Assembly (NCBI RefSeq): GCF_015158295.1
Contig: NZ_JACDXV010000002.1
Coordinates: forward strand, 186,001-250,000
Length of the DNA: 64,000 nucleotides
Source of the DNA: Devosia faecipullorum
GTDB taxonomy: Bacteria > Pseudomonadota > Alphaproteobacteria > Rhizobiales > Devosiaceae
Direction of reading: 5' to 3'
The notes under the pieces are model-generated. The model ran no database searches, was not told the origin of the DNA, and worked only from the letters and a program-made list of their open reading frames with translations. Positions 17,514 to 62,671 of this stretch are shown here, piece after piece. A program made the translations under genes and the position numbers. Every line of letters starts with the position of its first letter. Positions within the stretch are counted from its first letter, which is position 1.

Positions 17514-17574
17514 GGGACTTGATCCATAGCTGTTGAGCTATGGATTGATTTATAGCCATGGGGCTATGAATGAG

Positions 17575-19332: not shown

Positions 19333-21144
19333 ATGGCCAATTACGAACTGATCGACCACGAATTCGACGTGGTAGTGGTGGGCGCCGGCGGCGCGGGTCT
19401 GCGCGCGACCCTGGGCATGGCCGAGCAGGGCTTCAACACCGCCTGCATCACCAAGGTCTTTCCCACCCGCTCCCATACGGTGGCGGCGCAGGGCGGCATT
19501 GCCGCTTCCCTGCAGAATATGGGTCCCGACAGCTGGCAATGGCACATGTACGACACCGTCAAGGGGTCGGACTGGCTGGGCGACAACGACGCCATGGAAT
19601 ATCTGGCGCGCGAGGCCCCTGCGGCCATCTATGAGCTGGAGCATTACGGCGTGCCGTTCTCCCGCACCCAGGACGGCAAGATCTATCAGCGGCCCTTTGG
19701 CGGTCACATGACCGAGTTCGGCGATGGCCCGCCGGTGCAGCGCACCTGCGCCGCCGCCGACCGCACCGGCCACGCCATCCTGCACACGCTCTATGGCCAG
19801 TCGGTCAAGAACGATGCGCAATTCTTCATCGAATATTTCGCCCTCGACCTGATCATGGGCGAGAATGGCGAGTGCCAGGGCGTTATCGCCTGGAAGCTCG
19901 ACGATGGTACGCTGCACCGTTTCCGCGCCAAGCTGGTGGTGCTGGCGACCGGCGGCTATGGCCGGTCCTATTTCTCGGCCACTTCGGCCCATACCTGTAC
20001 CGGCGACGGCAATGGCATGGTGGCGCGGGCCGGATTGCCGCTCCAGGACATGGAATTCGTGCAATTCCATCCGACCGGCATTTATGGCGCCGGCGTGCTG
20101 ATCACCGAGGGCGCGCGCGGCGAGGGCGGGTACCTGACCAATTCGGAAGGCGAGCGCTTCATGGAGCGCTATGCCCCCAATGCCAAGGACCTCGCCAGCC
20201 GCGACGTGGTCAGCCGCTGCATGACGCTGGAAATCCGCGAGGGGCGGGGCGTCGGTCCCAAGAAGGACCATATCTATCTGCACCTCGATCATCTCGATCC
20301 CAAAGTGCTGCATGAGCGCCTGCCGGGCATTACCGAAAGCGCCAAAATCTTCGCCGGTGTCGATTTGACCCGCGAGCCGATCCCGGTCCTGCCGACGGTG
20401 CACTACAATATGGGCGGCATTCCCGCCAATTATCACGGCGAAGTGCTGAACCCGACCGCCGACGATCCCAACCGCATCGTGCCCGGCCTGATGGCCGTGG
20501 GCGAAGCGGCCTGTGCCTCGGTGCATGGCGCCAACCGCCTGGGCTCGAACTCGCTGACCGACCTCGTGGTCTTCGGTCGCGCTGCGGCGCTGCGGGCCGG
20601 CAAGGTCGTCGACAAGAGCACGCCGGTGCCGGGCATCAACAAGGCGCAGGACGACAAGATCCTGGCGCGCTTCGATCGCCTCCGCAACGCCAATGGCAGC
20701 CAGCCGACTGCAAGATTGCGCGACGAGATGCAACACACCATGCAGGCCGATGCTGCCGTGTTCCGCACCGATGCCTCGCTCAAGCAGGGCGTCAAGGCGA
20801 TGAGCGAGATCTATGCGCGTCTGCCGGACGTCAAGGTTTCGGACCGCTCGCTGATCTGGAATTCGGATCTGGTGGAAACGCTCGAACTGGAAAACCTCAT
20901 GACCTCGGCCATCGCCACGGTGGTGAGCGCCGAGGCGCGGCACGAAAGCCGGGGCGCCCATGCGCATGAGGATTATCCCAATCGCGACGACGTGGAATGG
21001 CGCAAGCACACGCTGGCCCATGTGAACGTGGAAACCGGCGCGGTCACGCTCGGCTATAGGCCGGTGATCACCGAGCCGCTGACGCCGCAGGATCAGGGCG
21101 GCATCGATCTCAACAAGATCGCACCCAAGGCGAGGGTCTATTGA
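19333..21144 (+). CDS. sdhA: Succinate dehydrogenase flavoprotein subunit
   Basis: SdhA oxidises succinate to fumarate and passes electrons to FAD. The 603-residue protein has the FAD Rossmann motif VVGAGGAG near residues 15-22, the FAD-attachment histidine in [10 protein letters not shown], the substrate-binding stretch [10 protein letters not shown] and the C-terminal HE(S)RGAH motif. I chose ATG 19333; frames open further upstream run through sdhD. The stop overlaps the ATG of a small secreted-protein gene by one base. Confidence 0.97.
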
Positions 21145-21428
21145 TGAACAGGATCATTCTCTCACTGGCCCTGATGCTGGCCGCGGCGTCCGCCATGGCG
21201 GCGCCGAGTTCGGCGCAGAAGGACGAATTCTATTCGGTCTGCGTGGGTATTTCGCAAAATGCCGAACTCTGCCGCTGCAAGGCGGATGCGGCGATGACGC
21301 TGATCGATGAGCGCTTCATGGGTGTGGTGATCGCCTCGATGAAGGGCGGTTCGCCCGCAGCGGCCGATTATCAGGCCTACAATGCCTATGTCGCCAGATC
21401 GAACCAGATCTGCAAGCCGAATTACTAG
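21144..21428 (+). CDS. Small secreted four-cysteine protein within the sdh operon
   Basis: The 94-residue product has a clear signal peptide ([19 protein letters not shown], cut near residue 19-20), leaving a mature protein of about 75 residues with four cysteines spaced as VCVG, LCRC and ICKP. Two disulfides are likely. The start overlaps the sdhA stop (TGATG), so it is coupled to sdhA. I do not recognise a family. Its place between sdhA and sdhB is unusual and suggests, without proving, a link with envelope redox or complex II maturation. Confidence 0.72.
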   Translation: MNRIILSLALMLAAASAMAAPSSAQKDEFYSVCVGISQNAELCRCKADAAMTLIDERFMGVVIASMKGGSPAAADYQAYNAYVARSNQICKPNY

Positions 21429-21451
21429 GCGGCCCCAAGACCTCAAGATGG

Positions 21452-21471
21452 ATCCCGGCCTGCGCCGGGAT
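21452..21471. repeat. Palindromic dispersed repeat
   Basis: ATCCCGGC (21452-21459) and GCCGGGAT (21464-21471) flank a four-base loop in the gap before sdhB. This GATCCCGGC..GCCGGGATGAC type is a common dispersed element in alphaproteobacteria. It may stabilise the upstream part of the sdh mRNA. Confidence 0.5.
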
Positions 21472-21532
21472 GACATCGGAGATGTGAAGACCTTTCGGAC
21501 GACCCCAAGCGTCCCGCTAGAAGGAATGAAAA

Positions 21533-47774: not shown

Positions 47775-48197
47775 TTCATATCCCATTGATTTCATTGAAT
47801 ATTTGCCGTTTCTGGCGGGAATGATGCCCGGCAATTTACCCGATGCGGTCGCTCGCCCCTCAAGGCGCGTTCCGGGCTGGCGATTTCGGATCAAAATCCC
47901 GCATTCCCTTGAGCCATGTTTCGACACCGTGCCGATTAGGCTCAACCTTTGTCCCTTGCCAAAGCGTCCGGCATTTCGCCCGGCGCGTTTACTGGCCGGT
48001 CATGCCGGGCAATTAACCGAGAAACCGAAGGCTGCTGGTAAGCTTGCGTTGAGGGTCGCCCTGGCTTGAGCGGTCGGCATCATCGCTGATTGTCGTTATG
48101 GATGGCGGGAATGGGTGTCGAGACGGGTGGAGTGTCAACGGACGCTGGACAGTCCAGTGCCTGGTAAGGCATCCCGTCTTGGGCGCGATTGTCGAAC

Positions 48198-48226
48198 TTG
48201 ACGCTCGTTTTGGTTATGTATAGACT
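48198..48226 (+). promoter_or_regulatory. Promoter of the lyase/ABC operon
   Basis: TTGACG (48198-48203) and TAGACT (48221-48226) are 17 bases apart; TATAGA at 48219 is an alternative -10. The -10 region lies inside the operator-like motif at 48216-48230, the layout expected for a repressed promoter. Confidence 0.45.
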
Positions 48227-48230
48227 TAAT
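48216..48230 (+). promoter_or_regulatory. HutC-like operator, lyase operon
   Basis: ATGTATAGACTTAAT matches the hutF/hutI promoter site (minus strand, 59039-59025) at 13 of its first 14 bases and resembles the TGTATA(G/T)ACA type of HutC operators. It overlaps the predicted -10. Confidence 0.55.
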
Positions 48231-48305: not shown

Positions 48306-49805
48306 ATGTCGGATGTCGTGAGGCAGGTAGGGGCCCGGCTAACCGGCCAAGTGGATCCGCTTTTGCAGAAGCGTTTTTATCCCGGGCCGATCAGCAATCT
48401 GCGTCGCAGCTATACGGCATTCCATTCTTTTGACAAAGCGCACACGATCGCATTGCTCGAAGCCGACCTCATCACGCCCGAAATTGCCCGTGCGATCCTG
48501 GCAGGTCTGCGCCGCATGGAAGGCGAGGGCATCGAAGTCATTCGCGACCGTATGGGGGGTGGACGCCATTCCGGCGAAGCCTTTCTCACCGAGACTATCG
48601 GTGCCGAATATGCTGGCTGGATCAATGTTGGCCGCTCATCCGGCGATCTGGATGCAATGTCCTGGCGCTTCAACCTCCGCCGCCGGCTGCCGGCATTGCT
48701 GATGCGCCTGAATGATCTGCGTGGTGGCCTGCTTGATGTCGCGGGGCAGCACACAACGACGATCATGCCGTGCTACAGCATCGGGCAGCACGCACAATGC
48801 ACCTCGTTCGGCCACATGCTTCTGTCGTGGGAGGCCATGTTTGCCCGCGATGCTCAGCGTGCCATGGCCCTGCATGGGGAGACCGGAGGGAGCCCGACGG
48901 GCTCCGGCATCATGACCGGCTCGCCCTTCCCCATATCCCGCCAACGCACCGCGGAACTGCTTGGTTTTGACACGGTTCAGATCAATACGCGCGATGCGGT
49001 GGTCAATCTCGATACGCTCATGCATGCGCATAGTGTCATTGCGATCTGCATATCCAACGCTCTCAGCGTCGCCAATGATCTCTATCTGTGGACGATGACA
49101 GAGTTCAAGTATCTTGAGCTGCATGACAGCTATTGCAGCACCAGCAGCATCATGCCGCAGAAGAAGAATTCCTGGGCCCTGGCATGGATACGAGGCCAGG
49201 CTTCTCTGGCAATCGGGCGTCTTTCCGGGGTTTTCACCCTGCTCAAGATGGAATCCGATGGCCTGGAAGACACGCTCATGGCGCCGTGGCAGCTCTATGA
49301 GGCCATGGATGAAGTCGAAGACATGCTGGCAATGCTGCATGGCATGGTCACCACGATGACCGTCAATGTCGAGCGCCTGGCCTCGCTGGCCGGCCATGGC
49401 TGGACGCAGGCTGCCGATATTGCCGCGATGATCATGGTCAAGGGACATATCCCGTGGCGCGACGCTCACCAGATCGTTGCCCATCTCGTCCGTGAATTCG
49501 TCGACGCCGGCAAGTCTCCCGAGGATCTTCTGCCAGCAGATATCGACCGGCTGGCCGAGCAGCTCATCGGACGCCCCGTGTCCGTGACCAAAGAGGATAT
49601 CGGCAATTCCATCGATCCGCTGCAATCGCTCTACAATCGCGGCCACGTCACCGGTTCGCCGGCACCGGCGCAGGTTGCGGCGCAAATTGACGCCGCGCGC
49701 AGCCGCATAGCGGAGGATCATGATCGCGGCGAAGCCAATGAGGCGGCGCTGGCGGAAGCAGCAAAACGGCTGGAAGAGGCTGTTGACGCCATAATCGGGG
49801 CTTGA
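48306..49805 (+). CDS. Divergent argininosuccinate lyase-family (fumarate lyase superfamily) protein
   Basis: The 499-residue protein is collinear with ArgH but not a second ArgH. It keeps the catalytic serine box SSIMPQKKN (residues 280-288), but the box lacks the Pro and late Glu of ArgH (the Glu position reads A293). The ArgH Thr-His pair (GFTHLQ) is CYSIGQ here, and the ARSRND box is GRSSGD. I chose ATG 48306 because AGGGAGAAG lies upstream and the family start fits. Family members release fumarate from N-substituted aspartates; here the changed active site points to a different or altered reaction. It is the first gene of an ABC-transporter operon, eight bases before the permease. Confidence 0.85.
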   Translation: MSDVVRQVGARLTGQVDPLLQKRFYPGPISNLRRSYTAFHSFDKAHTIALLEADLITPEIARAILAGLRRMEGEGIEVIRDRMGGGRHSGEAFLTETIGAEYAGWINVGRSSGDLDAMSWRFNLRRRLPALLMRLNDLRGGLLDVAGQHTTTIMPCYSIGQHAQCTSFGHMLLSWEAMFARDAQRAMALHGETGGSPTGSGIMTGSPFPISRQRTAELLGFDTVQINTRDAVVNLDTLMHAHSVIAICISNALSVANDLYLWTMTEFKYLELHDSYCSTSSIMPQKKNSWALAWIRGQASLAIGRLSGVFTLLKMESDGLEDTLMAPWQLYEAMDEVEDMLAMLHGMVTTMTVNVERLASLAGHGWTQAADIAAMIMVKGHIPWRDAHQIVAHLVREFVDAGKSPEDLLPADIDRLAEQLIGRPVSVTKEDIGNSIDPLQSLYNRGHVTGSPAPAQVAAQIDAARSRIAEDHDRGEANEAALAEAAKRLEEAVDAIIGA

Positions 49806-49812
49806 GGCGGAA

Positions 49813-50796
49813 ATGCCCGATATCAATCCTTTCGTCGCCTTTATCGGCCGGCGCGTGATGTTCGCCATCCCGACGATCATCGCCCTTGTCACCGCAGTCT
49901 TTGTTCTGGTGCACAGCGCGCCCGGCGATCCGCTGAGTTTCATCACCGGCGATGCCGACATGGGCACCGAGCAACTTGCCGAGCTGCGCCGCGAATACGG
50001 CCTCGACCAGCCGCTCATCCAGCAATATGCCATCTATGTCAGCAAGATATTCCAGGGCGATTTCGGATCGTCCTATCGCTATCGGGAGCCTGTTCTCGAC
50101 CTGATCATTGGCCGTACGCCCGCCACGCTGATGCTGATGGTGCCGGCAATGGTCCTGTTCATCGGTCTTGGCATTCTGCTCGGCGTCATGGCGGCCCGAT
50201 TTCCCAATTCGCCCGGTGATCTGGGACTGACCGGGCTGGCCCTGTTCGGCTGGTCGGTGCCGGTGTTCTGGCTCGGCCAATTGCTGGTGATCGTATTTGC
50301 GCTCAAGCTTGGCTGGCTGCCCTCGCAAGGCATGTACAATCTGAGGGCGCCAGCCGAAGGCTTCGGGCGAATTCTGGATATCGGCTGGCATCTCATCCTG
50401 CCCGGACTGGCGCTTGGCATGCGCTTTATTGCGCTCGCCACACGCATGACCCGGGCCAGCATGATGCAGGTCATGCGGCTCGACTATATGACGACGGCCC
50501 GCGCCAAGGGCCTGAAAGAGCCGGTGGTGCTCTATCGGCATGCCCTGCCCAATGCCCTGCTGCCCGTCATCACCATTATCGGCATGAACATTGGCACCAT
50601 GCTTACCGGCTCCGTGCTTATCGAGGTCGTATTCGCCTGGCCGGGCATGGGGCGCCTGCTCTACGACGGCGTGCTGGCCCGGGACTATCCATTGATCACC
50701 GGCATTATCCTGGTGACGTCGATCATGGTGATCCTGATCAATCTGCTCACCGACATCCTTTACGCGATCATCGATCCGCGTATCCGCTACACGTGA
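49813..50796 (+). CDS. Peptide-type ABC transporter permease (DppB-like)
   Basis: The 327-residue inner-membrane protein has six helices and the binding-protein-dependent permease fold. SAPGDPLSFI near residue 37 and the EAA loop region ARAKGLKEPVVLYRHALPNALLPV are typical of the DppB/OppB family. It is seven bases after the lyase gene and 12 before the second permease. With its partner it forms the pore; the substrate is not fixed by sequence. Confidence 0.92.
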   Translation: MPDINPFVAFIGRRVMFAIPTIIALVTAVFVLVHSAPGDPLSFITGDADMGTEQLAELRREYGLDQPLIQQYAIYVSKIFQGDFGSSYRYREPVLDLIIGRTPATLMLMVPAMVLFIGLGILLGVMAARFPNSPGDLGLTGLALFGWSVPVFWLGQLLVIVFALKLGWLPSQGMYNLRAPAEGFGRILDIGWHLILPGLALGMRFIALATRMTRASMMQVMRLDYMTTARAKGLKEPVVLYRHALPNALLPVITIIGMNIGTMLTGSVLIEVVFAWPGMGRLLYDGVLARDYPLITGIILVTSIMVILINLLTDILYAIIDPRIRYT

Positions 50797-50808: not shown

Positions 50809-51642
50809 ATGATTGCTCAAAACTGGCTCCGCCTCCTGCGCAGCCGCTCCGGCATGGTGGGTTTCGTACTCGTCCTCATGGCGACGCTGATCGGCATCTT
50901 CGGCCCAATGCTGACCGGATCGCCTACGCAAATTGGTGCTGAGGCCTTCTGCTCACCCGGCGCAAGTTGTCTGCTCGGAACCGATGATCTGGGCCGTGAC
51001 ATGTTCGTGCGCATGGCCCATGGCGCAAGGGTTTCCCTGCTTGTCGGCTTTGCGGCTGCAGCTTTCGCATCCGTATTGGGCATTGTCATCGGCTCGATAT
51101 CAGGCTTTGTCGGCGGCAAGGTCGATGAATTGTTCATGCGCATTGCCGAAGCCTTCCAGGTCGTGCCGCAATTCTTCCTGGCCATCCTGATCGTGGCTCT
51201 GTTCGGTCCGTCGCTGACCAAGATTGTCCTTGTCATCGGTATTCTGAGCTGGGCCGATACGGCGCGCATCGTGCGGGCCGAATTTCTCAAGCTGCGCGGG
51301 CAGGACTATGTCGTTGCGGCGCAGCTTGCCGGTGCTTCGCGCGCGGCGCTGATCTTTTCGGAGATTCTGCCCAATGCGCTGCCGCCGGTGATCGTCACGG
51401 CTTCGCTGCAGATCGCCAGCGCGATCCTCACCGAGGCAAGCCTCAGTTTCCTGGGCCTTGGCGACCCCGACCAGGTGAGCTGGGGGCAATTGCTGTTTGC
51501 CGCGCAGCCCTTTCTCAACCAGGCCTGGTGGATGGCCATTTTCCCCGGCATCGCCATCTTGGTGACCACACTGGGCTTCAACTTGTTAGGCGACGGACTG
51601 AACGATGTGCTCGATCCGCGCCAGAAAGGCAGCACGCGATGA
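50809..51642 (+). CDS. Peptide-type ABC transporter permease (DppC-like)
   Basis: The 277-residue protein is the second permease, with an N-terminal OppC_N-type first helix, LLGTDDLGRDMFVRMAHGAR near residue 60 and an EAA loop QDYVVAAQLAGASRAALIF. Six helices are visible. Its stop overlaps the ATPase start as ATGA, so the three transporter genes form one coupled unit. Confidence 0.92.
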   Translation: MIAQNWLRLLRSRSGMVGFVLVLMATLIGIFGPMLTGSPTQIGAEAFCSPGASCLLGTDDLGRDMFVRMAHGARVSLLVGFAAAAFASVLGIVIGSISGFVGGKVDELFMRIAEAFQVVPQFFLAILIVALFGPSLTKIVLVIGILSWADTARIVRAEFLKLRGQDYVVAAQLAGASRAALIFSEILPNALPPVIVTASLQIASAILTEASLSFLGLGDPDQVSWGQLLFAAQPFLNQAWWMAIFPGIAILVTTLGFNLLGDGLNDVLDPRQKGSTR

Positions 51643-53648
51643 CACTGCTTCAGGTCGAGGGGCTGGCGGTTGATTTCCCGATCGGCGATGGGCGCAAGGT
51701 TCGCGCCGTCGAAGGCGTCGATCTTCGCGTGGATGCCGGCGAGATTGTCTGCATTGTCGGCGAGTCTGGCTGCGGAAAGTCCGTCACCGTCCGGTCGCTG
51801 TTCAACCTGTTGCCGCCCCCGGGGCGGCGCAGCGAAGGGCGCGTCATTTTCGATGGCACCGACATTGACACGCTTTCCGCCGAGCAACAGCGCGAGCTGT
51901 GCGGTACGTCGGTAGGCTATGTCTTCCAGGATCCGATGACCTATCTGAACCCGCTGCTGACGGTGGGTGCGCAGATCTGCGAGGCCTTTGCCGGCCATGT
52001 CAGGTTCAACCGCGATCCTGTGGCGATGCAGCGGATATTGGAATTGCTGGGCGAACTCGGCATTGGCGATCCCAAGCGCGTCGTCCAGTCCTATCCGCAT
52101 CAGCTGTCCGGTGGCATGCGCCAGCGCATTCTGATCGCCATGGCCATTGCCCGCCGGCCAAAACTGCTCATTCTGGACGAGCCCACCACGGCTTTGGATG
52201 TCACCATCCAGGCGCAGATTGTCGACCTGATCCGCGTCATCCAGAAGCATACTCAATGCGGCATGATTTTCGTGACGCACGATTTCGGCCTCGTGGCCGA
52301 ACTCGCAGACCGGGTCTATGTCATGTATGCCGGCCAACTGGTCGAGCAGAATAATGTCGAAGCCATCTTCAACGCCCCGCAGCATCCCTACACGAAGGGG
52401 TTGATCGAATGCGTGATCCCCGTTGGGGAATCCGCTGGGCTTCGCACCATTCCCGGTGAAGTTCCCAATCTCCGCATGCCGCCGCCCGGCTGCCGCTTTG
52501 CCGTGCGCTGCCCGCGCAAGACGGCCGAATGCGAGGCGGAAACACCGCCGCTCGAAACCAAAGCGCAAGGCCAGATCCGCTGCTTCCATTCGGGAGGCGA
52601 CGGCGCCAGCCCGGCGGTGGATGTCGGTACCTTGCCGCGGCGCGATGATCGCTTTTCCGGCATCCGCGCGGAGGACGGCGACAGCGAGGCCGGCAGTGTC
52701 ACGGTCGAGGCCGCCACGAAATACTTCCCCGCGCGGGGTGGATCGTTCGGTAGCAAGGCGATGGTTCATGCCCTCAACACGGTTTCCGTGACGCTCGAGC
52801 CAGGCGAGATATTTGCCCTGGTGGGGGAAAGCGGCAGTGGCAAGTCAACGCTGGGTCGGCTGGTCGCGGGGCTCGAAATGGTCAGTGGCGGACGGATCGT
52901 CATTGGCAATCAGAATCCGGCAAAACGCCTTGCCAGCGGTAGCAAGCCGCTTGCGCAAATGGTGTTCCAGGACCCCTATTCGTCGCTCAATCCACGCAAG
53001 ACCATCCGCCATACGCTGGCTCAGCCGCTGCTCAACTACAAGATTTGCCGCCGTGACGAGGTGGAGGCGCGGTCAATCGCCCTGCTCGAGCTTATTGGCC
53101 TCACGCCTGCCCGGGAATTTCTGGACCGCCATCCGCATGAATTGTCGGGCGGACAACGCCAGCGTGTCGTCATGGCCCGCGCTCTGGCAGCCGAGCCCAG
53201 GGTCCTGGTGGCCGATGAGCCGGTTTCGTCACTGGATATGTCAACCCGCGCCCAGATTCTCGGCCTGCTGCAGGAATTGCGCAGGAAGATGGGGCTGACC
53301 ATCTTGCTGATCACGCACGATCTTGCCGTGGTCAGCACGGTGGCCGACAGAATGGGCGTAATGTATCTCGGGCGCCTGTTTGAGATTGCTCCCGCCAAGC
53401 TCGGTGTCGCCGCGCCATTGCAGCCCTATACGCAAATGCTCGTCTCCTCGGTCCCGCTGCCGGATCCACAAAAGGCGCGTACGCGCGAGCGGCTGCTGAT
53501 GAACGGCGAACCGCCCTCGCCACTCAACCTGCCCTCCGGATGTTATCTACACGCACGCTGCCCCAAGGCGCTGCCGACCTGTAAGGTCGAGGCGCCGGAA
53601 TGGCGGGAAATGCAGCCTGGTCACCATGTCGCCTGTCACCTCTACTGA
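51639..53648 (+). CDS. Fused double ABC ATPase (DppD-DppF type)
   Basis: The 669-residue protein joins two peptide-type ABC ATPases. Half one has Walker A GESGCGKS (residues 41-48), LSGGMRQR and [11 protein letters not shown], then an oligopeptide C-terminal domain. Half two has GESGSGKS (about 396-403), LSGGQRQR and [10 protein letters not shown] with its own C-terminal domain. Such fusions are common in Rhizobiales peptide or opine importers. It powers the two preceding permeases. I chose ATG 51639; longer frames are not family-like. Confidence 0.93.
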
Positions 53649-55014
53649 TTCCGAAATGTCGGACACCATTTCGGCGCGTATCGCCGCCTTTGCCGTCGCC
53701 GCCGCGTCTGATCCGGTGCCGCCCGAGGTGGCCGAGCGCGCCAGGCACTGTGTGATCGACCACCTGCATGCCGCGCTACAGGGCACGAACAGCCAGACCG
53801 CGGCCATATTGAACGGCTATGATGGCGCTGCGGGGGCGGAGGCGCTGGCCTTGCGACTTGGCGCATTGTCGACCGTCTACGAGATCGACGACGTCCATCG
53901 CGATACGTCCATGCATCCTGGCTCGACGGTCGTTGCCGCAGCGCTCGCTGCTGCCCTGGATTCCAAGGCCGACGATGCCCGGCTGCTTGCCGCCGTCGCC
54001 GCGGGCTACGAAGTCGCTATCCGCCTGAGCGTGGCGGCGGGCGAACGGCACTATCACTACCATCAGTCCACGGCCACCTGCGGAACCATAGCTGCGGCCG
54101 TCGCCGCCAGCATCGTCTACGGCCTTGATGCCGAACAGACGAAAAACGCCATCGGCCTCTCGGCGACCATGGCCAGCGGATTGTGGGAAGATATCAACAA
54201 TGCGGCGATCATGGTCAAACATCTGCATTCCGGCTTTGCGGCCGAGCGCGGCGTCCGTGCCGCGCGGCTGGCGGCCTTGGGCATGAACGCTGCGAGCAGG
54301 GCGATTGAGGGGCCGAAGGGGTTTTTGGCGGCATTGGCGCGCCAGGATGCCGCCTATCCCCTCGAGAGCACGCTGGACGAAGCCGCCTTGCGGAAAATTC
54401 TTACCGAGGGCCTCGGCGAGCGCTGGTCGATCCTGCGCAACATCTACAAGCGCTATCCTTTCTGTCTTGGCTGTTTCGAGCCTCTTGAGGGGATGCGGCA
54501 TGTTCTTTCCACTTCAGGGCGGGCCATTGCCGATATCGAAGGGGTGACGATCGAGATCTACCCTCCGACCGCACAACTGGTCGGCAATCGTGCGCCCACC
54601 AATCAGCTCCAGGCAAAATTCAGCGCCGTCTTTGCCATTGCCTTGCTGCTCGCCGGGCGCGATCCGGAGAATGTTCTGTTGCCGGTCGAGTGGCTGAGCG
54701 CGCCGGACGTGGTCGCCTGGTATCCAAAGATCCAATGCCTGGGCAATGGCTCGCTTCGTCCTCGCAGCGCCCTTGTCAATGTGACATGGAAAGACGGCAC
54801 GACCACATTGGGCAATGAACCGCTGCGCTCCCTTGACGAGAACGAAGTGCTTGAGCGCTTTGCAGGACTGGTTCGCCGGACGCTGGGCGACGAGGCTGCA
54901 GGGCTGGAAGCGCGCCTCGCAAGGCTGGGGACGCAGCCGTCCAGTGCCGATCTGACGAGGATGGTCGTGTCGGCCCTCACATCGAAGGCGGTCGAAACCG
55001 CCAATCCTTCATAA
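53626..55014 (+). CDS. MmgE/PrpD family protein
   Basis: The 462-residue protein belongs to the MmgE/PrpD fold, which includes 2-methylcitrate dehydratase, cis-aconitate decarboxylase and iminodisuccinate epimerase. HPGSTVVAAALA and KHLHSGFAAERGVRAARLA are family motifs. The residues that separate these activities cannot be assigned by eye. I took ATG 53626, which overlaps the ATPase end by 23 bases; ATG 53656 is an alternative. It is the last gene before a terminator. An epimerase or dehydratase acting with the lyase is plausible inference. Confidence 0.87.
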   Translation: MSPVTSTDSEMSDTISARIAAFAVAAASDPVPPEVAERARHCVIDHLHAALQGTNSQTAAILNGYDGAAGAEALALRLGALSTVYEIDDVHRDTSMHPGSTVVAAALAAALDSKADDARLLAAVAAGYEVAIRLSVAAGERHYHYHQSTATCGTIAAAVAASIVYGLDAEQTKNAIGLSATMASGLWEDINNAAIMVKHLHSGFAAERGVRAARLAALGMNAASRAIEGPKGFLAALARQDAAYPLESTLDEAALRKILTEGLGERWSILRNIYKRYPFCLGCFEPLEGMRHVLSTSGRAIADIEGVTIEIYPPTAQLVGNRAPTNQLQAKFSAVFAIALLLAGRDPENVLLPVEWLSAPDVVAWYPKIQCLGNGSLRPRSALVNVTWKDGTTTLGNEPLRSLDENEVLERFAGLVRRTLGDEAAGLEARLARLGTQPSSADLTRMVVSALTSKAVETANPS

Positions 55015-55119: not shown

Positions 55120-56727
55120 TTACTGCTCCTTGCCATCCTCGGTCCAGGCATCCCAGAAGCTGTAATAGGAATAGGCGCTCCACTCGTGCAGGCCGTGGAA
55201 CTTGCTGTTCCAGACGCCAACGATGCCAACTTCCTCGAGCCAGATTGCAGGAAGTTCGTCTACCAGAATTTTCTGGGCCTCCTGATAGGCGGCGACGCGA
55301 CCATCAAGCGTGAACGCACTCTGCCCTTCAGCGAACAGCTGATCGACGGTTTCATTCCGGTAGCCGGACGCATTGGTGAAGTTCACGGGCCGGATATTGG
55401 TCGAGACATAGAGGCGCGAGACGTCGATTGCCGGGTCGGCGCCGGTCGAGAAGATGTGGATCTGCGTATCGAAATCGCGCTTGATATAGACGTGGTCAAG
55501 CATGACGTTGCGCTCGAGCAGTTCCAGCTCGAGGTTGACCCCGACCTGGGCAAATTGCTCCTTGAGGATCTCCGCCGCCTTGCGATGGAACTCGACTGCA
55601 CCATCGGCGATGACGCGGATGCTGAAGCGGGTTCCATCGGCCTTTACCGGGTAGCCGGCTTCGTCAAGCAGCGCAGCTGCCTTTTCCAGATCATGCGCAT
55701 AGGCTTCGACATCTGCCTCATAGGCCCAGCTTGTCGAGGCGATCGGTCCGGTCGCCGGTTTGCCCACGGAATAGTCAGCGCGCTCGGCGATGAGATTCTT
55801 GTCCATGGCATAGGCAAGAGCCTTGCGCACGCGCACGTCGCTCAGGATCGGATTCTCCACGTTGATGGAAAGCATGCCGATCGATGCAAGCGATTCAAAA
55901 CCTTCCGTCGTCGTGGTCAGGTTCGGGGTCTCCTTCAGGCGCGGCACGGCAGAGGACGGAACCGACTGATAGGACAGATAGTCGATATCGCCCGATTCCA
56001 GCGCGAGAACCCGACTTGCCGCATCGGGAATGGTCTGGAAGACCAGCCGATCCAGATAAGGCTTGCCGGCAATGAAGAAGTCTTCGTTGCGGGCCAGGGC
56101 GACGTGCGACCCCTTTTCCCATTCCACGAACTTGAACGGACCGGTGCCCACTGGCTTGGCATTGTAGGGATTGTTCTTGATATCCGTGCCGGCATAGAGG
56201 TGCTTGGGCAGGATGAAGAAGTCATATCCGAGTGCGTTCATCAACGGACCGAAGGATGTCTTGAGCGTGATGACCACAGTGTTGGCATCAGGCGCCTCGA
56301 CCGTGTCGATCACACCCTGATAGGTCGCGCCACGGCTGTGGAGCGGCAGGATGACTTCCTCGATGGTGAACTTGACGTCGTCGGAGGTAAATGGCTGACC
56401 ATCGTGCCATTTGACGCCCTGGCGAAGATGGAATGTATAGGTCAGGCCATCTTCGGATATGTCCCAGCTTTCCGCGAGATCGGGCACCGGCTGGAATGTC
56501 TTGTCGAGCCGGATCAGCATGCTGAACACATTGCTCGAAATGGTCTTTTCCACCAGATTGGCGCTGATGGAGGCGTTGAGAACGCCCGGGTCGGCACCGA
56601 TGCCAACAATCATGCCGCCACCGATACGCGGTTTGGCGTCCTCTGCATGAGTGGCAGCTGCACCGAGCATAAACAGTGCAGACAAAAGAGGGACGATCGC
56701 TTTCCCCCTCAGTATTCTTCTTAGCAT
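55120..56727 (-). CDS. Peptide-type ABC transporter solute-binding protein
   Basis: The 535-residue periplasmic SBP_bac_5 protein has a signal peptide (MLRRILRGK to THAED, cut near residue 28) and the class C binding-protein fold: an early LVEKTISSNVFSMLIRLD and the later SDDVKFTIEEV. It probably feeds the permeases at 49813-51642, although it is convergent with that operon and apart from it. I chose ATG 56727, with AGGGGA upstream. A HutC-like site lies about 80 bases before the start. The ligand is unknown; the family binds peptides, opines, nickel chelates and other amino-acid conjugates. Confidence 0.92.
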   Translation of the reverse strand: MLRRILRGKAIVPLLSALFMLGAAATHAEDAKPRIGGGMIVGIGADPGVLNASISANLVEKTISSNVFSMLIRLDKTFQPVPDLAESWDISEDGLTYTFHLRQGVKWHDGQPFTSDDVKFTIEEVILPLHSRGATYQGVIDTVEAPDANTVVITLKTSFGPLMNALGYDFFILPKHLYAGTDIKNNPYNAKPVGTGPFKFVEWEKGSHVALARNEDFFIAGKPYLDRLVFQTIPDAASRVLALESGDIDYLSYQSVPSSAVPRLKETPNLTTTTEGFESLASIGMLSINVENPILSDVRVRKALAYAMDKNLIAERADYSVGKPATGPIASTSWAYEADVEAYAHDLEKAAALLDEAGYPVKADGTRFSIRVIADGAVEFHRKAAEILKEQFAQVGVNLELELLERNVMLDHVYIKRDFDTQIHIFSTGADPAIDVSRLYVSTNIRPVNFTNASGYRNETVDQLFAEGQSAFTLDGRVAAYQEAQKILVDELPAIWLEEVGIVGVWNSKFHGLHEWSAYSYYSFWDAWTEDGKEQ

Positions 56728-56802
56728 GGATCGGTCCCCTTTACCGATTAAAGTTGTGGCGGAGATGGTCTCTCCGTCGGCCAAACCGTATCGAATTTGG
56801 TG

Positions 56803-56817
56803 AATATGTCTATATAT
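56803..56817 (-). promoter_or_regulatory. HutC-like operator upstream of the binding-protein gene
   Basis: On the minus strand ATATATAGACATATT matches ATGTATAGACTTAAT at 12 of 15 positions. It lies about 80 bases before the ATG at 56727 and just after the GntR gene stop. Confidence 0.4.
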
Positions 56818-56841: not shown

Positions 56842-57543
56842 TCAGGATGCCGGTTCGAATCGGGCTATCAGCGTATGGCTATCCCCGGGATAGACAAGTC
56901 GGACAAAAGTAATAGGACCGGCACGGTTCCAGGTGCGGCGCTGCACCATCAGGCAGGGCGTGCCCTTGGGCAGTTCGAGCAGGCGCGCGATTTCGGCCGA
57001 AGCGGGGAGGGCCTGAATGCGATTTTCTGCGGCGCTCCAGGGCACTTGTGCAATAAGCCAGCCGCCAGGAGCGTTGACGGCAAAGTCGGCGGTCTCGGCC
57101 TCAGGCACGACGCCGACATTGATCCGCCGTTCTTCCACGCAGAACGGTTTGGCACCGGCATGGTGCACGGCCAGAAGTTCCAGCACCAGCGTATCTGCTT
57201 CCAGTTCCATCACGGCGCGGTCCTGAGCGTCGGACGGGCGGAGTTTGCGGCTCACCAAGGTGTAGGCATAGGGGACACCGAGGGACTTCACCTCGGTCTC
57301 GATGTCGTGCAGTTCCAAAGCGGCCGATTGGGCCCGGGGCATCGTCACGAAGCTCCCGGCACGGCGATGGCGCTCTATCAGCCCGGCTTTGGCCAGTTGG
57401 GTCATGACTTTGTTCACGGTCATGCGGGAACAGCCATAATGTTTGGCCAGATCAACCTCGAATGGCAGGCGGTGCCCGGGCGGCCACTCGCCTGACACGA
57501 TGCGGCTTTCGATCTCGCCCAGTATCGTTTGATGGAGTGTCAT
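56842..57543 (-). CDS. hutC: GntR family regulator, HutC type
   Basis: The 233-residue protein has an N-terminal winged-helix domain (about residues 1-70, with PPGHRLPFEVDLAKHYGCSRMTVNKVM in two parts) and a UTRA effector domain from about residue 90. HutC proteins repress hut genes and are released by urocanate. Next to hutF and facing hutI-HGU, this assignment is strong; binding of urocanate is by family. I infer that it also controls the transporter/lyase units through the shared motif. It is 98 bases after hutF on the same strand. Confidence 0.88.
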   Translation of the reverse strand: MTLHQTILGEIESRIVSGEWPPGHRLPFEVDLAKHYGCSRMTVNKVMTQLAKAGLIERHRRAGSFVTMPRAQSAALELHDIETEVKSLGVPYAYTLVSRKLRPSDAQDRAVMELEADTLVLELLAVHHAGAKPFCVEERRINVGVVPEAETADFAVNAPGGWLIAQVPWSAAENRIQALPASAEIARLLELPKGTPCLMVQRRTWNRAGPITFVRLVYPGDSHTLIARFEPAS

Positions 57544-57641: not shown

Positions 57642-58985
57642 TTACGCCGTCAGTTCTTTCATTGCTGCAATGAAGCGGGCCGTGATTGCGTCTCTTTTCT
57701 TGTGCCGCCCGCCTTCTACCTGTTTTGTGCCGCCCACCCAGACACTATCAACGCCGATGCCGCGCGAAAAAATGAAGTGATCCAGCACCTTGTCGGTCGG
57801 GACATATTCGGCTGCCGCCAGATCCAGCGACAGCAGGTCGGCGGGTCGGCCGGCCTCGATGCCGGCATGGACGCCCAGGGCCGAGGCCCCGCCATGCAAC
57901 GCTTCCACGAAGAGGCTCATTCCGGTCGAGTGACCCGGATCGGCAATGACATTGCGCGCGCGCCGGAACAGACGCTGGGAATATTCCAGCATGCGCAATT
58001 CCTCCGGCAGCGAGATCAGGACATTGCTGTCAGAACCTATGCCGAATCGACCGCCTGAAGCCCTGAAGGTGGCCGCCGAAAACACGCCGTCGCCAAGATT
58101 GGCTTCGGTGATCGGGCAAAGCCCCGCGATCGCCCCGCTTCGTGCGAGCCGTTCAAATTCATCATCTGTCATATGCGTGGCGTGGATCAGGCACCAGCGG
58201 CGATCCACCGGCATCGCGTCCAGCAGCCATTCTACCGGGCGCCGCCCCGACCAGGCCAAGCAGTCCTCCACTTCCCTGACCTGCTCGGCAACGTGAATAT
58301 GCACCGGCCCGCCATGGGCCAGCGGAATCACGGCCTGCAATTGCTCGGAGGTCGCTGCGCGCAGGCTATGTGGCGCAATGCCGAGAACGGCGTGTGGCAG
58401 GGCCGAAACGATGGATCGCGAGCGGTCCATCAGGCGCGCAAAGCCCTCCAGATCGTGGATGAAACGACGCTGGCCGTCGGCCGGCGCCGCGCCACCGAAA
58501 CCGGAATGGGCGTAGAAGACGGGCAGCAGGGTCAGGGCAATGCCGGTGGATGCGCTCGCCGCCGCGATGCGCCCCGCCATTTCGGCGGGATCGCCATAGG
58601 CGGTCCCATCCCTGTCGTGGTGCAGATAGTGGAACTCGCCGACGCGGCCAAAGCCGGTTTCCAGCATTTCCATATAGAGTTGTGCGGCGATCGCTTCGAC
58701 ATGGTCGGGCGTCATCGACAGCGCGATGCGATACATTTCGGTGCGCCAACTCCAGAAACTGTCCTGCCCGGGCCCCCGGGTCTCGGCGAGACCCGCCATG
58801 GCGCGCTGAAAAGCATGGCTATGCAGGTTGGGCATTGCCGGGGTGACGAAGCGATGACGTTCGTCCCGGTCATAGGGCCGCACGCCGACCTCGACGCTTT
58901 CGATGCCCGCCTCGGAGAACTGGATGCGAACGTCCTGCGCCAATCCGGCCGGCAGGAGCGCGCTTTGGGCATGGATGGCTGGCAT
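57642..58985 (-). CDS. hutF: Formimidoylglutamate deiminase
   Basis: HutF converts N-formimino-L-glutamate to N-formyl-L-glutamate and ammonia, the first step of the two-step hut branch. The 447-residue amidohydrolase has the metal box NLHSHAFQRAMAG near residue 53, HIHVAEQ, and the SDSNVLISL segment with the late metal Asp. It is divergent from hutI with the operator-like site in between, and it is followed by hutC. Its presence with hutG shows that this organism does not use formiminoglutamase. Confidence 0.94.
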   Translation of the reverse strand: MPAIHAQSALLPAGLAQDVRIQFSEAGIESVEVGVRPYDRDERHRFVTPAMPNLHSHAFQRAMAGLAETRGPGQDSFWSWRTEMYRIALSMTPDHVEAIAAQLYMEMLETGFGRVGEFHYLHHDRDGTAYGDPAEMAGRIAAASASTGIALTLLPVFYAHSGFGGAAPADGQRRFIHDLEGFARLMDRSRSIVSALPHAVLGIAPHSLRAATSEQLQAVIPLAHGGPVHIHVAEQVREVEDCLAWSGRRPVEWLLDAMPVDRRWCLIHATHMTDDEFERLARSGAIAGLCPITEANLGDGVFSAATFRASGGRFGIGSDSNVLISLPEELRMLEYSQRLFRRARNVIADPGHSTGMSLFVEALHGGASALGVHAGIEAGRPADLLSLDLAAAEYVPTDKVLDHFIFSRGIGVDSVWVGGTKQVEGGRHKKRDAITARFIAAMKELTA

Positions 58986-59024: not shown

Positions 59025-59039
59025 TTTAAGTATATACAT
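59025..59039 (-). promoter_or_regulatory. HutC-like operator in the hutF/hutI divergent promoter
   Basis: On the minus strand ATGTATATACTTAAA; the first 14 bases differ at one position from the lyase-operon site at 48216-48229. On the plus strand TTGCGT (59011) and TATACA (59033), 16 apart, would form the hutI promoter, overlapped by the site. Confidence 0.6.
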
Positions 59040-59080
59040 ATGATGAGTGTTCGGCAATGTGGCTGGCGGGGAGGGGATGT

Positions 59081-60328
59081 TTGACTAGCGGTGATCGTGT
59101 TTGGACCAATGCGCGGCTGGCGACGCTCAACCCGGCCCGGCAGGGGCTCGGTATTGTGGAAAATGGTGCTATCGCGGTGCGCGACGGCCGGATCGTCCAT
59201 ATCGGCTCCATGAACGACCTTCCCATTGCCGAGCTTGCAGGCGCGGAGACGATCGATTGCGAAGGGCGATGGATCACCCCGGGGCTTGTCGACTGCCACA
59301 CCCATATCGTTCACGCCGGACACCGGGCGCGGGAATTCGAGATGAGGCTGGCCGGGGCTTCGTATGAAGAGGTGGCGCAGGCTGGAGGCGGCATCGTGTC
59401 TTCCGTGACAAGTACGCGCGCCGCCGATGAGGCTCAACTTGTTCGTGAGAGCCTGGTGCGCCTCGACGCCTTGCTGGCCGAAGGCGTCACAACGGTCGAG
59501 ATCAAGTCCGGTTATGGCCTGACGGTGGCCGACGAGATGAAAATGCTGCGCGCCGCCCGTCGATTGGGTGAAGTGCGGGATGTCGCCGTGACCACCACAT
59601 ATCTGGGCGCCCACGCGATACCTGCCGAGTATAAGGGCCGCAATGACGCCTTCCTGAATGACGTCATCCTTCCGGGCCTTGACGCCTGTCACGCCCAAGG
59701 GCTGGTCGACGCGGTCGATGGTTTTTGCGAAGGCATTGCCTTTTCACCCGATGAAATACGATCGGTGTTCGATGCCGCTTCGGCAAAGGGGCTCAAGATG
59801 AAGCTCCATGCCGATCAATTGTCGAACCTGCATGGCGCCGCCCTGGCCGCGAGCTATGGAGCTCTTTCGGCGGATCACCTCGAATATGCCGATGAAGACG
59901 GCGCGCGAGCCATGGCCGGCGCCGGCACCGTCGCGGTCCTATTGCCGGGTGCCTTTTATTTCATTCGGGAGACGAAGAGGCCACCTGTCGATCTGTTCCG
60001 CCAGCATGGCGTGCCCATGGCCCTGGCCACTGACTGCAATCCGGGCACCTCGCCGCTGACATCGCTGCTGCTGACCATGAATATGGGCGCAACATTGTTT
60101 GGCCTGACGGTGGAAGAATGTCTGGCCGGCACGACCCGCGAAGCAGCCCGTGCGCTGGGCCGCCTGGCCGATATCGGCACGCTTGAGGTCGGAAAAGCTG
60201 CCGATTTCGCCATCTGGGACATCTCCGAACCTGCGGAACTGGTCTACCGCATCGGTTTCAATCCGCTTGCCGCCCGCATTCGTGGCGGCCGCGACGCGCA
60301 CCAGCCTTCCGTGAGGATACATCCATGA
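59081..60328 (+). CDS. hutI: Imidazolonepropionase
   Basis: HutI hydrolyses imidazolone propionate to formiminoglutamate. The 415-residue amidohydrolase has the metal box [12 protein letters not shown] near residue 69 and a late DCNPG segment with the catalytic Asp. I chose TTG 59081, because GAGGGG lies four bases upstream and [16 protein letters not shown] is the usual family start; an ATG at 59057 has no such site. Its stop overlaps the hutH ATG as ATGA. Confidence 0.93.
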
Positions 60329-61878
60329 CGATCACGCTTCGGCCGGGCTCGGTGCCGCTTGATGATCTTGCCGCAATCTACTGGACGAGTGAGAATGCCG
60401 TTCTCGATCGCGCCTTCGATGGCGGTATCGAAAAGGCTGCGGCCCGGATCGCCGCCATAGCCAATGGCAACGAGCCGGTCTATGGCGTCAATACCGGCTT
60501 CGGCAAGCTCGCTTCGATCAGGATCGATGCGGCCGACGTCGCCACTCTGCAGCGCAATTTGATCCTCTCCCATTGCTGTGGCGTCGGGGAGGCTCTGCCG
60601 CAGGCCATCGTGCGGCTCATCATGGCATTGAAGCTGATATCGCTGGGGCGCGGTGCGTCAGGCGTACGGCTGGACGTTGTTCGCCTGATTGAGGGCATGC
60701 TGGCCAAGAATGTCATCCCGGTCATTCCCGAAAAGGGATCCGTTGGTGCATCGGGCGATCTGGCGCCCCTGGCCCATATGGCTGCGGTGATGATGGGAGA
60801 GGGCGAGGCCTTCTATCAAGGCGAGCGGCTGGCTGGTGGCGTGGCTCTGGCACAGGCCGGCCTGTCGCCCCTGGTGCTCGCCGCCAAGGAAGGCCTTGCC
60901 CTGATCAATGGCACCCAGACGTCGACGGCATTGGCGCTGGCCGGCCTGTTCCGCGCGCATAGGGCCGCGCAGGCGGCCCTGATCACCGGCGCGCTGTCCA
61001 CCGATGCGGCCATGGGGTCGTCGGCGCCCTTCGTGGCCGACATTCATAATCTGCGAGGCCATATCGGCCAGATCGACGCAGCTGCGGCCTTGCGCATGCT
61101 ATTGGCGGGTTCGGCCATTCGCGAGAGCCATCGGCATGGCGACGAGCGCGTCCAGGATCCCTATTGTATCCGCTGCCAGCCGCAGGTCGACGGCGCCTGT
61201 CTCGATCTGCTGCGCCAGGTGGCGCGCACGCTGGAAGTCGAAGCGAATGCCGTGACGGACAACCCCTTGGTGCTGCCGGATGGCAGCGTCGTTTCCGGAG
61301 GCAATTTCCATGCGGAACCGGTGGCATTCGCCGCCGACCAGATCGCGCTGGCCATATGCGAGATCGGCGCGATCGCCCAACGCCGCATCGCCCTTCTCGT
61401 CGATCCGGCGCTTTCATATGGGCTGCCGCCTTTCCTCGCCAAAAATGCCGGCCTCAATTCCGGACTGATGATTGCGGAAGTCACTTCGGCGGCGCTGATG
61501 AGCGAAAACAAGCAGATGTCTCATCCGGCCTCGGTCGATTCCACGCCAACCTCCGCCAACCAGGAAGATCATGTGTCGATGGCCTGTCACGGCGCCCGCC
61601 GCCTGTTGCCGATGACGGAAAATCTGTTTGCCATTATCGGCATCGAAGCCCTTGCCGGCTCGCAGGGCGTGGAATTGCGTGGACCATTGGCCACCAGCCC
61701 CGAGCTGCAAAAGGCGATAGACTGTGTTCGGGCCGCTGTTCCGCCGCTCGACAATGACCGCTATATGGCGGGCGACCTTGCCGCAGCCACCCAATTGATC
61801 GCCGGCGGCGCGCTCGTCCGGAGCGTTTCGCCGGACATCCTGCCGTCACTTGGAGGCAGCGATGAGCGCCGTATTTGA
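60325..61878 (+). CDS. hutH: Histidine ammonia-lyase
   Basis: HutH deaminates histidine to urocanate. The 517-residue enzyme forms its MIO cofactor from Ala-Ser-Gly at residues 142-144 (GASGDLAPL), has the catalytic tyrosine in YGVNTGFG (Tyr53), and the late conserved QEDHVSM. The length fits. It is coupled to hutI by ATGA overlap and overlaps hutG by 17 bases. Confidence 0.96.
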
Positions 61879-62671
61879 GGTCAGGCAAGGATCCTCGCCC
61901 GTCATCCTGGCCTTTCCGCATACGGGAACTGACATGCCGGCGGATATACGAGCCCGGCTCAATGACAATGGCAGCCTGCTTGCCGACACCGATTGGCATA
62001 TCCATCACCTTTATGAAGGGCTTTTGCCGCAGGCAACCACGGTGCGGGCCACATTTCACCGCTATGTCATCGACGCCAATCGTGATCCGTCCGGCGCCAG
62101 CCTTTATCCCGGCCAGAATACGACGGGGCTGGTTCCCGTCAGCGATTTTGACGGCAATGCCATCTGGAAAGAAGGGTGTGAGCCGGACGAGGCGGATATT
62201 GCGGCCCGGCTGGAGACCTTTCATCGCCCCTATCACCGGGCTTTGTCAGCAGAGCTTGAGCGGGTGCGGCGCCTGCATGGCGTGGCCGTGCTTTACGATT
62301 GCCACTCGATCCGCTCCTTGATCCCGTTTCTGTTCGAGGGCCGCCTGCCGGATTTCAATATCGGAACCGACAACGGGGCCAGCTGTGATCCGGCGATGGA
62401 AAAAGCGGTGACCGACATCGCGGCGGCGGCAGGCGCAGATGGTTATAGTTCGGTACTCAATGGCCGGTTCCGCGGCGGCTGGACGACGCGCCATTACGGC
62501 AAGCCCGAGACGGCAACGCACGCCATCCAGATGGAATTGTCGCAGTCCAGCCATCTTGCGGCTGAAGCCTTGCCCTTTGCCTATGACCCGGCAAAGGCGG
62601 CGCGCCTGCGTTCCCACCTGAAACAAATCCTCGAGCGCGTCGAAGCCATCGCGCTCGGCATGAAACGCTGA
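61862..62671 (+). CDS. hutG: N-formylglutamate amidohydrolase
   Basis: This HutG hydrolyses N-formylglutamate to glutamate and formate and works after HutF. The 269-residue protein has the family metal-site motifs [18 protein letters not shown] and a YDCHSIRS segment. I chose ATG 61862, with GGAGG six bases upstream. It overlaps the hutH end by 17 bases and is followed by hutU after 11 bases. Confidence 0.93.

Follow-up and report, generated by a model that had tools for sequence, protein, structure and literature searches.

What reaction is catalyzed by a homolog of argininosuccinate lyase (ASL) in which most of the active-site residues of that enzyme have been replaced? This question is raised by a gene of Devosia faecipullorum that lies in a 64,000-nucleotide stretch of contig NZ_JACDXV010000002.1 (positions 186,001 to 250,000), hereafter the window, in which coordinates are counted from its first letter. 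The gene (48306..49805, plus strand) encodes an ArgH-like lyase of 499 residues with a rebuilt active site (S112, G113, S158, I159, W290, and A293), in which S280, K286, and N288 are retained. We propose, giving the proposal about an even chance, that the protein is a C-N lyase of the fumarase/ASL superfamily and not an argininosuccinate lyase, and that it acts on an imported N-substituted aspartate with an epimerase as partner and under repression by HutC. Whatever its substrate, the lyase probably degrades some compound rather than making arginine.

Residues and relatives of the lyase

The open reading frame (ORF) of the lyase runs from an ATG at 48306 to a stop codon at 49803-49805 with no internal stops, and a purine-rich stretch, GGGAGAAGTCAATAATG, is located directly 5' of the ATG. 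The frame opens earlier, with a TTG at 48189; conservation begins only at the ATG at 48306. The Pfam domains Lyase_1 and ASL_C2 were both identified in the protein, which has the ASL fold.

Alignment with the normal ArgH of the window (9350-10798, minus strand; 610 bits with TIGR00838) showed that the Thr-His pair of that enzyme is Ser158-Ile159 in the lyase (CYSIGQHAQC), that ARSRND is GRSSGD, and that the end of the serine box, SSIMPQKKNSWALA, reads QKKNSWALA versus QKRNPDAAE, with Pro replaced by Ser, Asp by Trp, and Glu by Ala. The SSIMPQKKN box itself is intact, including Ser280, Lys286, and Asn288. An earlier reading made from the letters alone (the sequence-only reading) had claimed the replacement of Thr-His, the loss of the Asn from ARSRND (now Gly113), the loss of the Glu and Pro after the serine box, and the retention of that box with its Lys, all of which the alignment bore out. 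Two further changes were found: the Arg of ARSRND, missed earlier, is also lost (Ser112), and the lyase has other residues in place of the ArgH loop YSKDMQEDK. All ArgH sequences compared keep the Tyr, Lys, Gln, and Lys of this loop, which is gapped in the alignment, so that residues there can be paired only tentatively. The view that serine chemistry may remain while the rest has been rebuilt fits these residues, with the serine box, Lys286, and Asn288 kept and the His/Glu and Arg112/Asn113 pairs gone.

We compared 14 positions of the ASL active site, all of them except the His, the Glu, and Lys323 being chosen by ASL annotation. Every one of the 14, the Thr, His, and Glu included, is kept in 30 of 30 ArgH sequences, that is, the window ArgH and 29 others from the class, which are the 30 best-scoring of 47 ArgH-model matches listed for 58 class genomes and hence represent typical ArgH. 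The lyase retains the first Ser of the box, the Lys, and the Asn (3 of 14) and has lost the remaining 11. The His, the Glu, and Lys323 are described as active-site residues of ASL in the excerpted text of PMC2779060. Because a normal ArgH is present in the window, arginine synthesis does not need the lyase gene. The genome has two more relatives, on contigs C4 and C1. An ArgH paralog on C4 (L003/L047, 9554-11059) scores 300.8 bits, over the ArgH cut-off, and keeps Thr-His and ARSRND with an altered arginine-side loop.

Orthologs of the lyase were found in genomes G966 (84% identity), G361 (69%), and Bosea sp. BK604 (64%), and the four proteins formed a clade (100/100) in a 37-row tree. Nine lyases (100/99) were sister to this clade, the 13 together being supported at 100/99, and ArgH (seven rows), EDDS lyase (6g3d with its homolog L099), and the XcbC-type enzymes (three rows) each formed a clade of their own (100/100). 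A 51-row tree, which included the 29 class ArgH and the window ArgH and in which the bootstrap had not settled, recovered the same clade around the window lyase with nine rows (98/96). For the 37-row tree, L004 and 24 of the 29 class ArgH rows had been removed and 11 new rows added; the roots of the trees are midpoints.

In all 13 rows of the larger clade, position 112 is Ser and position 113 is Gly or Ala, and eight of the nine sister lyases have Thr-His (Thr-Gln in the ninth), indicating that the loss of Arg and Asn marks the larger clade. In the aligned sequences, the small four-member clade is marked by Ser158, Ile/Leu159, Cys165, and the Pro-to-Ser change; positions 290 and 293 are less clear-cut, Asp290 being lost in two and Glu293 in three of the nine sisters. 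Ser158, Ile/Leu159, Trp290, and Ala/Ser293 are common to the four orthologs, window lyase included, and S158, G160-C165, S280-W290, and ESDGLEDT (316-323) are invariant among the proteins of the window, Bosea, and G361. Pairwise dN/dS values (NG86) among these three were 0.314/1.43, 0.235/1.618, and 0.278/1.257 (ratio 0.145-0.22), with dS (1.26-1.62) near saturation. The sequence-only reading had called for a phylogeny to see if the protein stands in a clade separate from ArgH and EDDS lyase, and had considered that it might be an isolated decayed copy with close relatives that keep Thr-His. The clade stands apart from both enzymes, and a decayed copy is ruled out by the three orthologs, which have Ser-Ile or Ser-Leu, and by the low dN/dS, which indicates purifying selection on the two that were compared by codon.

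The orthologs are sparsely distributed in the genomes sampled. One other genome (G361) among 385 in the class had an ortholog, as did two of 199 in the family of Bosea (Bosea itself and G966); no other was found among 136 genomes of the family of D. faecipullorum, where G071 held only a 34% relative, or among 398 genomes of the phylum. These counts are lower bounds, as at most four (class), three (phylum), and seven (Bosea family) candidates were scored per genome. One pattern scan of a named genome collection returned Bosea as the sole ortholog. Relatives of the lyase were not found in viral contigs, and the literature matches listed, mostly judged by title and abstract opening, included no publication on the clade. 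Additionally, in G505 (L027, 7663-10643) two different ArgH-like lyases are adjacent, next to a dipeptide-type transporter set.

Among solved structures, the closest relative of the lyase in sequence and fold was EDDS lyase of Chelativorans sp. BNC1 (PDB 6g3d-6g3i and 6rx8). Its entries ranked first in a phmmer search (E 1.3e-51 and 5.8e-51), followed by ArgH, and the alignment extends to its C-terminus (residue 496). The second of two AlphaFold models, made from four sequences and with a pLDDT of 76.5 that falls below 50 in active-site stretches (83-88, 158-162, and 314-325 among others), best matched EDDS lyase (Z 34.4-35.0, 476-478 residues, rmsd 3.7-3.8), followed by ASL and delta crystallins (Z up to 33.2, about 427 residues) and other superfamily members (Z up to 26.9). 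The first model was poor (mean pLDDT 59) and informative on the fold family at most. EDDS lyase thus leads ASL by a small margin, and a common fold says nothing on function.

The numbering from 112 to 293 coincides between the lyase and EDDS lyase, and Ser280, Ser281, Lys286, and Asn288 match in number and letter in all four orthologs. EDDS lyase has no His at 159 either (Gln159), so that the loss of the His alone does not exclude C-N lyase activity. The two enzymes differ in that their identity is about 30%, they fall in separate clades, and the lyase has S for R112, G for N113, I for Q159, and W for D290, while Y320 lies in a loop that is deleted (gapped) in the lyase. ArgH (TIGR00838) shares the fold and the serine loop and was the second-best structural match (Z about 33), but it differs from the lyase at all but 3 of the 14 invariant positions, in the arginine-side loop, and in its clade.

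Gene set around the lyase

The lyase gene heads an operon in which four genes follow in the same direction on the plus strand. They encode a DppB-like (49813..50796; PF00528, PF19300) and a DppC-like (50809..51642; PF00528, PF12911) dipeptide-type ABC permease, a fused DppD-DppF-type ATPase with two ABC_tran and two oligo_HPY domains (51639..53648), and an MmgE/PrpD-family enzyme (PrpD; 53626..55014; PF03972, PF19305), the proposed epimerase partner. Facing this operon from the minus strand are the genes for a family-5 periplasmic substrate-binding protein (55120..56784; PF00496), HutC, and HutF. We propose that the binding protein serves the transporter of the lyase operon; its true start is probably further in than the first TTG of its ORF.

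This gene set is conserved with the lyase. The lyase, DppB, DppC, and PrpD genes stand together in all four ortholog loci, and HutC and the binding protein (70% identity in Bosea, 85% in G966) also belong to the three loci that reach that far; the contig of G361 ends at the PrpD gene, and neither was seen beside it. Orthologs of the fused ATPase are present in G361 and G966 and not at that place in Bosea, where the order is lyase, DppB, DppC, PrpD, HutC, and binding protein. All seven module genes are held by G966, with identities of 79% (HutC), 85% (binding protein), 73% (PrpD), 87% (DppD/F), 91% (DppC), 90% (DppB), and 84% (lyase), and no match to the window HutF, HutI, HutH, or HutG was found in the 37.5 kb of its contig that were read. 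A similar combination of binding protein, PrpD, permeases, ATPases, and a lyase with GRSSGD is found in a more distant module (L022, G335). Two minor points concern these loci. In Bosea (20449-21495 of the locus), no fused DppD/F lies between DppC and PrpD, and the single ATPase ORF matched in the 21 kb that were read is only 42% identical to that of the window. The G966 module (L100 and L107, contig C6) lies on a 45-kb contig with very long ORFs (1583 and 1263 aa), possibly a mobile element.

Across 23 lyase contexts, PrpD was found near the lyase in all four ortholog loci, in two of nine sister-clade loci, and in one of ten others. The profile used was built from those seven PrpD proteins, which it hits by construction, and its new information is that none of the 16 other contexts gave a strong match; a weak match in L026 (23 bits) was not counted. 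Nor was a PrpD detected in the 20 kb of sequence surrounding the EDDS-lyase homolog of G991.

The closest solved relatives of the window PrpD are Bacillus IRG1 and iminodisuccinate (IDS) epimerase (2hp3, E=5.8e-19; 7bra, E=1.5e-27). His97 and Tyr143 of the window protein match H99 and Y145, the bases proposed for IDS epimerase in the part of PMC7347537 available, and are kept in all four modules. The Lys in KHLH was matched by eye to the Lys in KPLH (K200), and the equivalent of H151 is ambiguous, with Gln in the window and G966 and His in Bosea and G361. A candidate replacement of a catalytic His by Phe (YPFCLGCF) was dropped, as the corresponding H277 of the human enzyme is not conserved in the Bacillus enzyme according to the same portion of PMC7347537. 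The known system that this arrangement recalls is the iminodisuccinate pair of Agrobacterium tumefaciens BY6, in which an MmgE/PrpD protein likewise accompanies a C-N lyase. By the title of a 2004 study by Cokesa, an epimerase and a C-N lyase reportedly degrade iminodisuccinate as a pair.

HutC and operator-like sites

HutC (56842..57543, minus strand) scores 280.8 bits with TIGR02018 (cut-off 220) and is the sole protein over that cut-off in the genome; the module HutC orthologs of Bosea and G966 also exceed it. A HutC-type operator-like site, ATGTATAGACTT (48216..48227, plus strand), lies 78 bases 5' of the lyase start codon and has one mismatch to the 12-mer ATGTATAGACAT. A second site, ATATATAGACAT (56806..56817, minus strand), also with one mismatch, precedes the binding-protein gene, and a third is located between hutF and hutI (59028..59039), with two mismatches to the 12-mer on either strand and one to TGTA-N2-TACA, the consensus published for Pseudomonas.

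With up to two mismatches allowed, the 12-mer occurs at four places in the window (five matches, 0.81 expected), namely the three above and an off-target one at 17548. Three places were found in Bosea (four matches, 0.14 expected), one before the lyase and two before the binding protein (15992 and 16012), and two in G966 (four matches, 0.41 expected), one 5' of the lyase gene and the other 5' of the binding-protein gene (1541); the G361 stretch had none. Thus, operator-like sites precede the operon in three of four modules. Three other genus genomes have a HutC over the cut-off. The hut region contains the 12-mer three times in each of G080 and G034, whose HutC proteins are 54-55% identical to that of the window, and lacks it in G052 (HutC 32%). 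The operator claim rests on this 12-mer of the relatives and on position, and the shuffles in the scan of the relatives preserve base content only; the operator pattern used initially was written after the site had been viewed, which makes its low expectation partly circular. The Pseudomonas consensus TGTA-N2-TACA by itself is not enriched in the window (one match, 1.98 expected), which argues against simple transfer of the Pseudomonas operator. Bosea contains a single exact copy of it (0.51 expected with one mismatch allowed), and in G966 it is not clearly enriched (three matches, 1.15 expected, with three reached in 24 of 200 shuffles).

The window HutC also adjoins a hut operon and stands as the one HutC between the hut genes and the module. 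HutF, formimidoylglutamate deiminase (57642..58985, minus strand; NF006683, 723 bits, cut-off 654), is followed on the plus strand by HutI, imidazolonepropionase (59057..60328; TIGR01224, 447 bits, cut-off 298), HutH, histidine ammonia-lyase (60325..61878; TIGR01225, 721 bits, cut-off 539), and HutG, N-formylglutamate deformylase (61850..62671; TIGR02017, 384 bits, cut-off 279). HutU begins at about 62707 and runs past the window end (match at 248707-250002 of the contig), and a second HutU is encoded at 270252-271853 of that contig. Such operons (F, C, I, H, G, U) are uncommon within the genus: of the 41 genus genomes searched, 4 have a HutC over the cut-off, that of D. faecipullorum included.

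In Pseudomonas, HutC responds to urocanate (PMC12977541). A histidine link of the module is suggestive, with one HutC standing in the window between the module and the hut genes. The likeness to the proteobacterial HutC regulon consists of a HutC over the family cut-off and of operator-like sites common to the hut promoters of two genus relatives. The difference is that the members named in the available part of a 113-genome study (PMC5343134) are hut enzymes with HutD, histidine biosynthesis genes, and transporters, with no such lyase or PrpD among them. HutH is over its cut-off in all four carrier genomes, and also in G934 and G894, which have sister-clade lyases only, and no HutH match was found in G335, the carrier of the distant L022 module; this co-occurrence is weak support for the link. 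A second HutC over the cut-off is encoded within the separate hut operon of Bosea; it is 39% identical to the window HutC versus 50-51% for the module HutC of Bosea, and that operon carries no such operator-like sites. Since no hut enzyme genes were found beside the module HutC in Bosea and G966, HutC may simply have been recruited.

Proposed reaction, alternatives, and naming

The retained serine loop, the kinship with EDDS lyase, the importer genes, and the epimerase-like partner together suggest that the enzyme eliminates fumarate from an aspartate substituted on its nitrogen. In this scheme, the dipeptide-type transporter and its binding protein would import an N-substituted aspartate of an aminopolycarboxylate-like kind, and the MmgE/PrpD enzyme would invert the wrong stereoisomer, as in the published pair of iminodisuccinate epimerase and lyase. 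Ser280 of the lyase would then remove the beta-proton of the substrate, Lys286 and Asn288 would stabilize the aci-carboxylate, and the amine would be expelled with release of fumarate. HutC would repress both the lyase operon and the binding-protein gene. With the His/Glu and Arg/Asn pairs gone and the serine loop frozen, the clade is a natural experiment on which active-site parts are needed. It also offers a pocket built differently from that of EDDS lyase, an enzyme being engineered as a biocatalyst according to the accessible text of PMC12363623, and the tie to HutC is a tangible clue to what the natural substrate may be.

Several observations weigh against this proposal. Of the six EDDS-lyase residues near the substrate listed in the same excerpt (R112, N113, Q159, N288, D290, and Y320), only N288 is retained in the lyase, so the part that yields fumarate may be bound in another way, or may be something other than a succinate. 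In the PrpD protein, the equivalents of D91 and R100 (bsIRG1 numbering) are E86 and S95, with E and S in all four modules, which is also a difference from the A. tumefaciens BY6 pair; as the proposed bases are kept, this would fit an epimerase whose pocket has changed. In seven of nine sister-clade contexts, the surroundings of the lyase showed no PrpD. Lastly, XcbC-type enzymes too have lost both His and Glu, and their leaving group is phosphate and not an amine.

The last point makes a lyase with a non-amine leaving group the main rival, as the XcbC-type enzymes show both the His/Glu loss and an aromatic residue at 290. On this account, which appears unlikely without being far-fetched, the acid side is gone because a leaving group such as phosphate can depart without being protonated, and the carboxylate bound by ASL may have a sulfonate or some other acidic group in its place. 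The XcbC-type lyase of Nocardioides JS614, so called because of an adjoining phosphosulfolactate synthase, and two rows grouped with it (100/100) have Tyr or Trp at 290, Ala or Ser at 293, no His159, and a short 320 loop. In addition, the model for XcbC of bacterial coenzyme M biosynthesis (NF052535) covers 4-493 of its 495 positions in the window lyase with 241.9 bits, and in the 51-row tree XcbC and L027b, both on long branches, are sister to the nine-row clade of the lyase (11 rows together, 90/94). However, this score is far under the XcbC cut-off of 575, and a true ArgH reaches 229.9 bits on the same model. XcbC also keeps Arg112 and falls elsewhere in the 37-row tree, and the neighborhood seen in the window is one of uptake and histidine-utilization (hut) genes rather than of genes for coenzyme M. 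The features shared with the lyase clade by the XcbC-type rows L028, L094, and L095 (aromatic 290, Ala/Ser 293, no His159, short 320 loop) may reflect convergence or kinship.

A bolder version of the histidine link, which we regard as decidedly unlikely, is that the module serves to acquire histidine by a new route. The imported compound would be a dicarboxylate attached to histidine, such as one with a succinyl group on one of the histidine nitrogens; PrpD would correct its stereochemistry, and the lyase would split it into fumarate and histidine or an imidazole amine that enters the hut pathway, with urocanate lifting repression through HutC. If so, the pocket of Ile159 and Trp290 would hold the ring, and the His/Glu loss would agree with a leaving group that brings a proton along.

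That the protein is a catalytically weak or dead paralog with a regulatory or structural role seems quite improbable. The 11 lost ArgH positions would suit such a role, and two of the lost residues matter in ASL: a PDB entry, by its title, calls the H162N form of delta-2 crystallin an inactive mutant, and the E294L form retains about 10% activity in the excerpt of PMC2779060. Nevertheless, Ser280, Lys286, and Asn288 are invariant in the clade, S158, I/L159, C165, and W290 are conserved across 64-84% identity, and the gene heads a conserved operon of catabolic type. Very improbable is the synthetic direction, in which the enzyme would join an amine and fumarate into a chelator or a signal; in vitro, EDDS lyase accepts many amines for addition to fumarate (PMC12363623), but the module has importer-type genes (binding protein and dipeptide-type permeases) and a regulator of catabolic type. 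A divergent ASL is scarcely credible, for although the protein has Lyase_1 and ASL_C2 and comes close to the ArgH cut-off, which its 84% ortholog exceeds, it lacks 11 of the 14 positions and lies outside the ArgH clade (100/100), a normal ArgH is encoded in the window, and the identified operon genes are those of a transporter and PrpD.

With TIGR00838 (cut-off 279.5 bits), the window lyase scores 271.3, the Bosea ortholog 234.0, and the lyase of the L022 module 273.4. Three proteins outside the ArgH clade pass this equivalog model: the G966 ortholog (288.8; L100, 8537-10033), a Variovorax protein of the sister clade (318.0; L015, 8968-10473), and an EDDS-lyase homolog (347.1; L106, 9476-10957). 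The sequence-only reading had warned that automatic naming as argininosuccinate lyase would be wrong. The window protein itself falls just under the cut-off, and the risk is real in that its 84% ortholog, the sister-clade protein, and the EDDS-lyase homolog exceed it. Lyases whose residues clearly set them apart from arginine enzymes do pass the ArgH naming model. The interpretation given in that reading is supported with three qualifications, namely the wider Arg/Asn loss, the EDDS lyase without the His, and this naming score. In public records, Variovorax and Bradyrhizobium relatives are labelled argininosuccinate lyase and a Thioclava relative is labelled lyase family protein. Additionally, a lyase of the same superfamily is annotated as two overlapping pieces in a plasmid record of Rhizobium sp. 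RCAM05350 (L019, 8929-10507).

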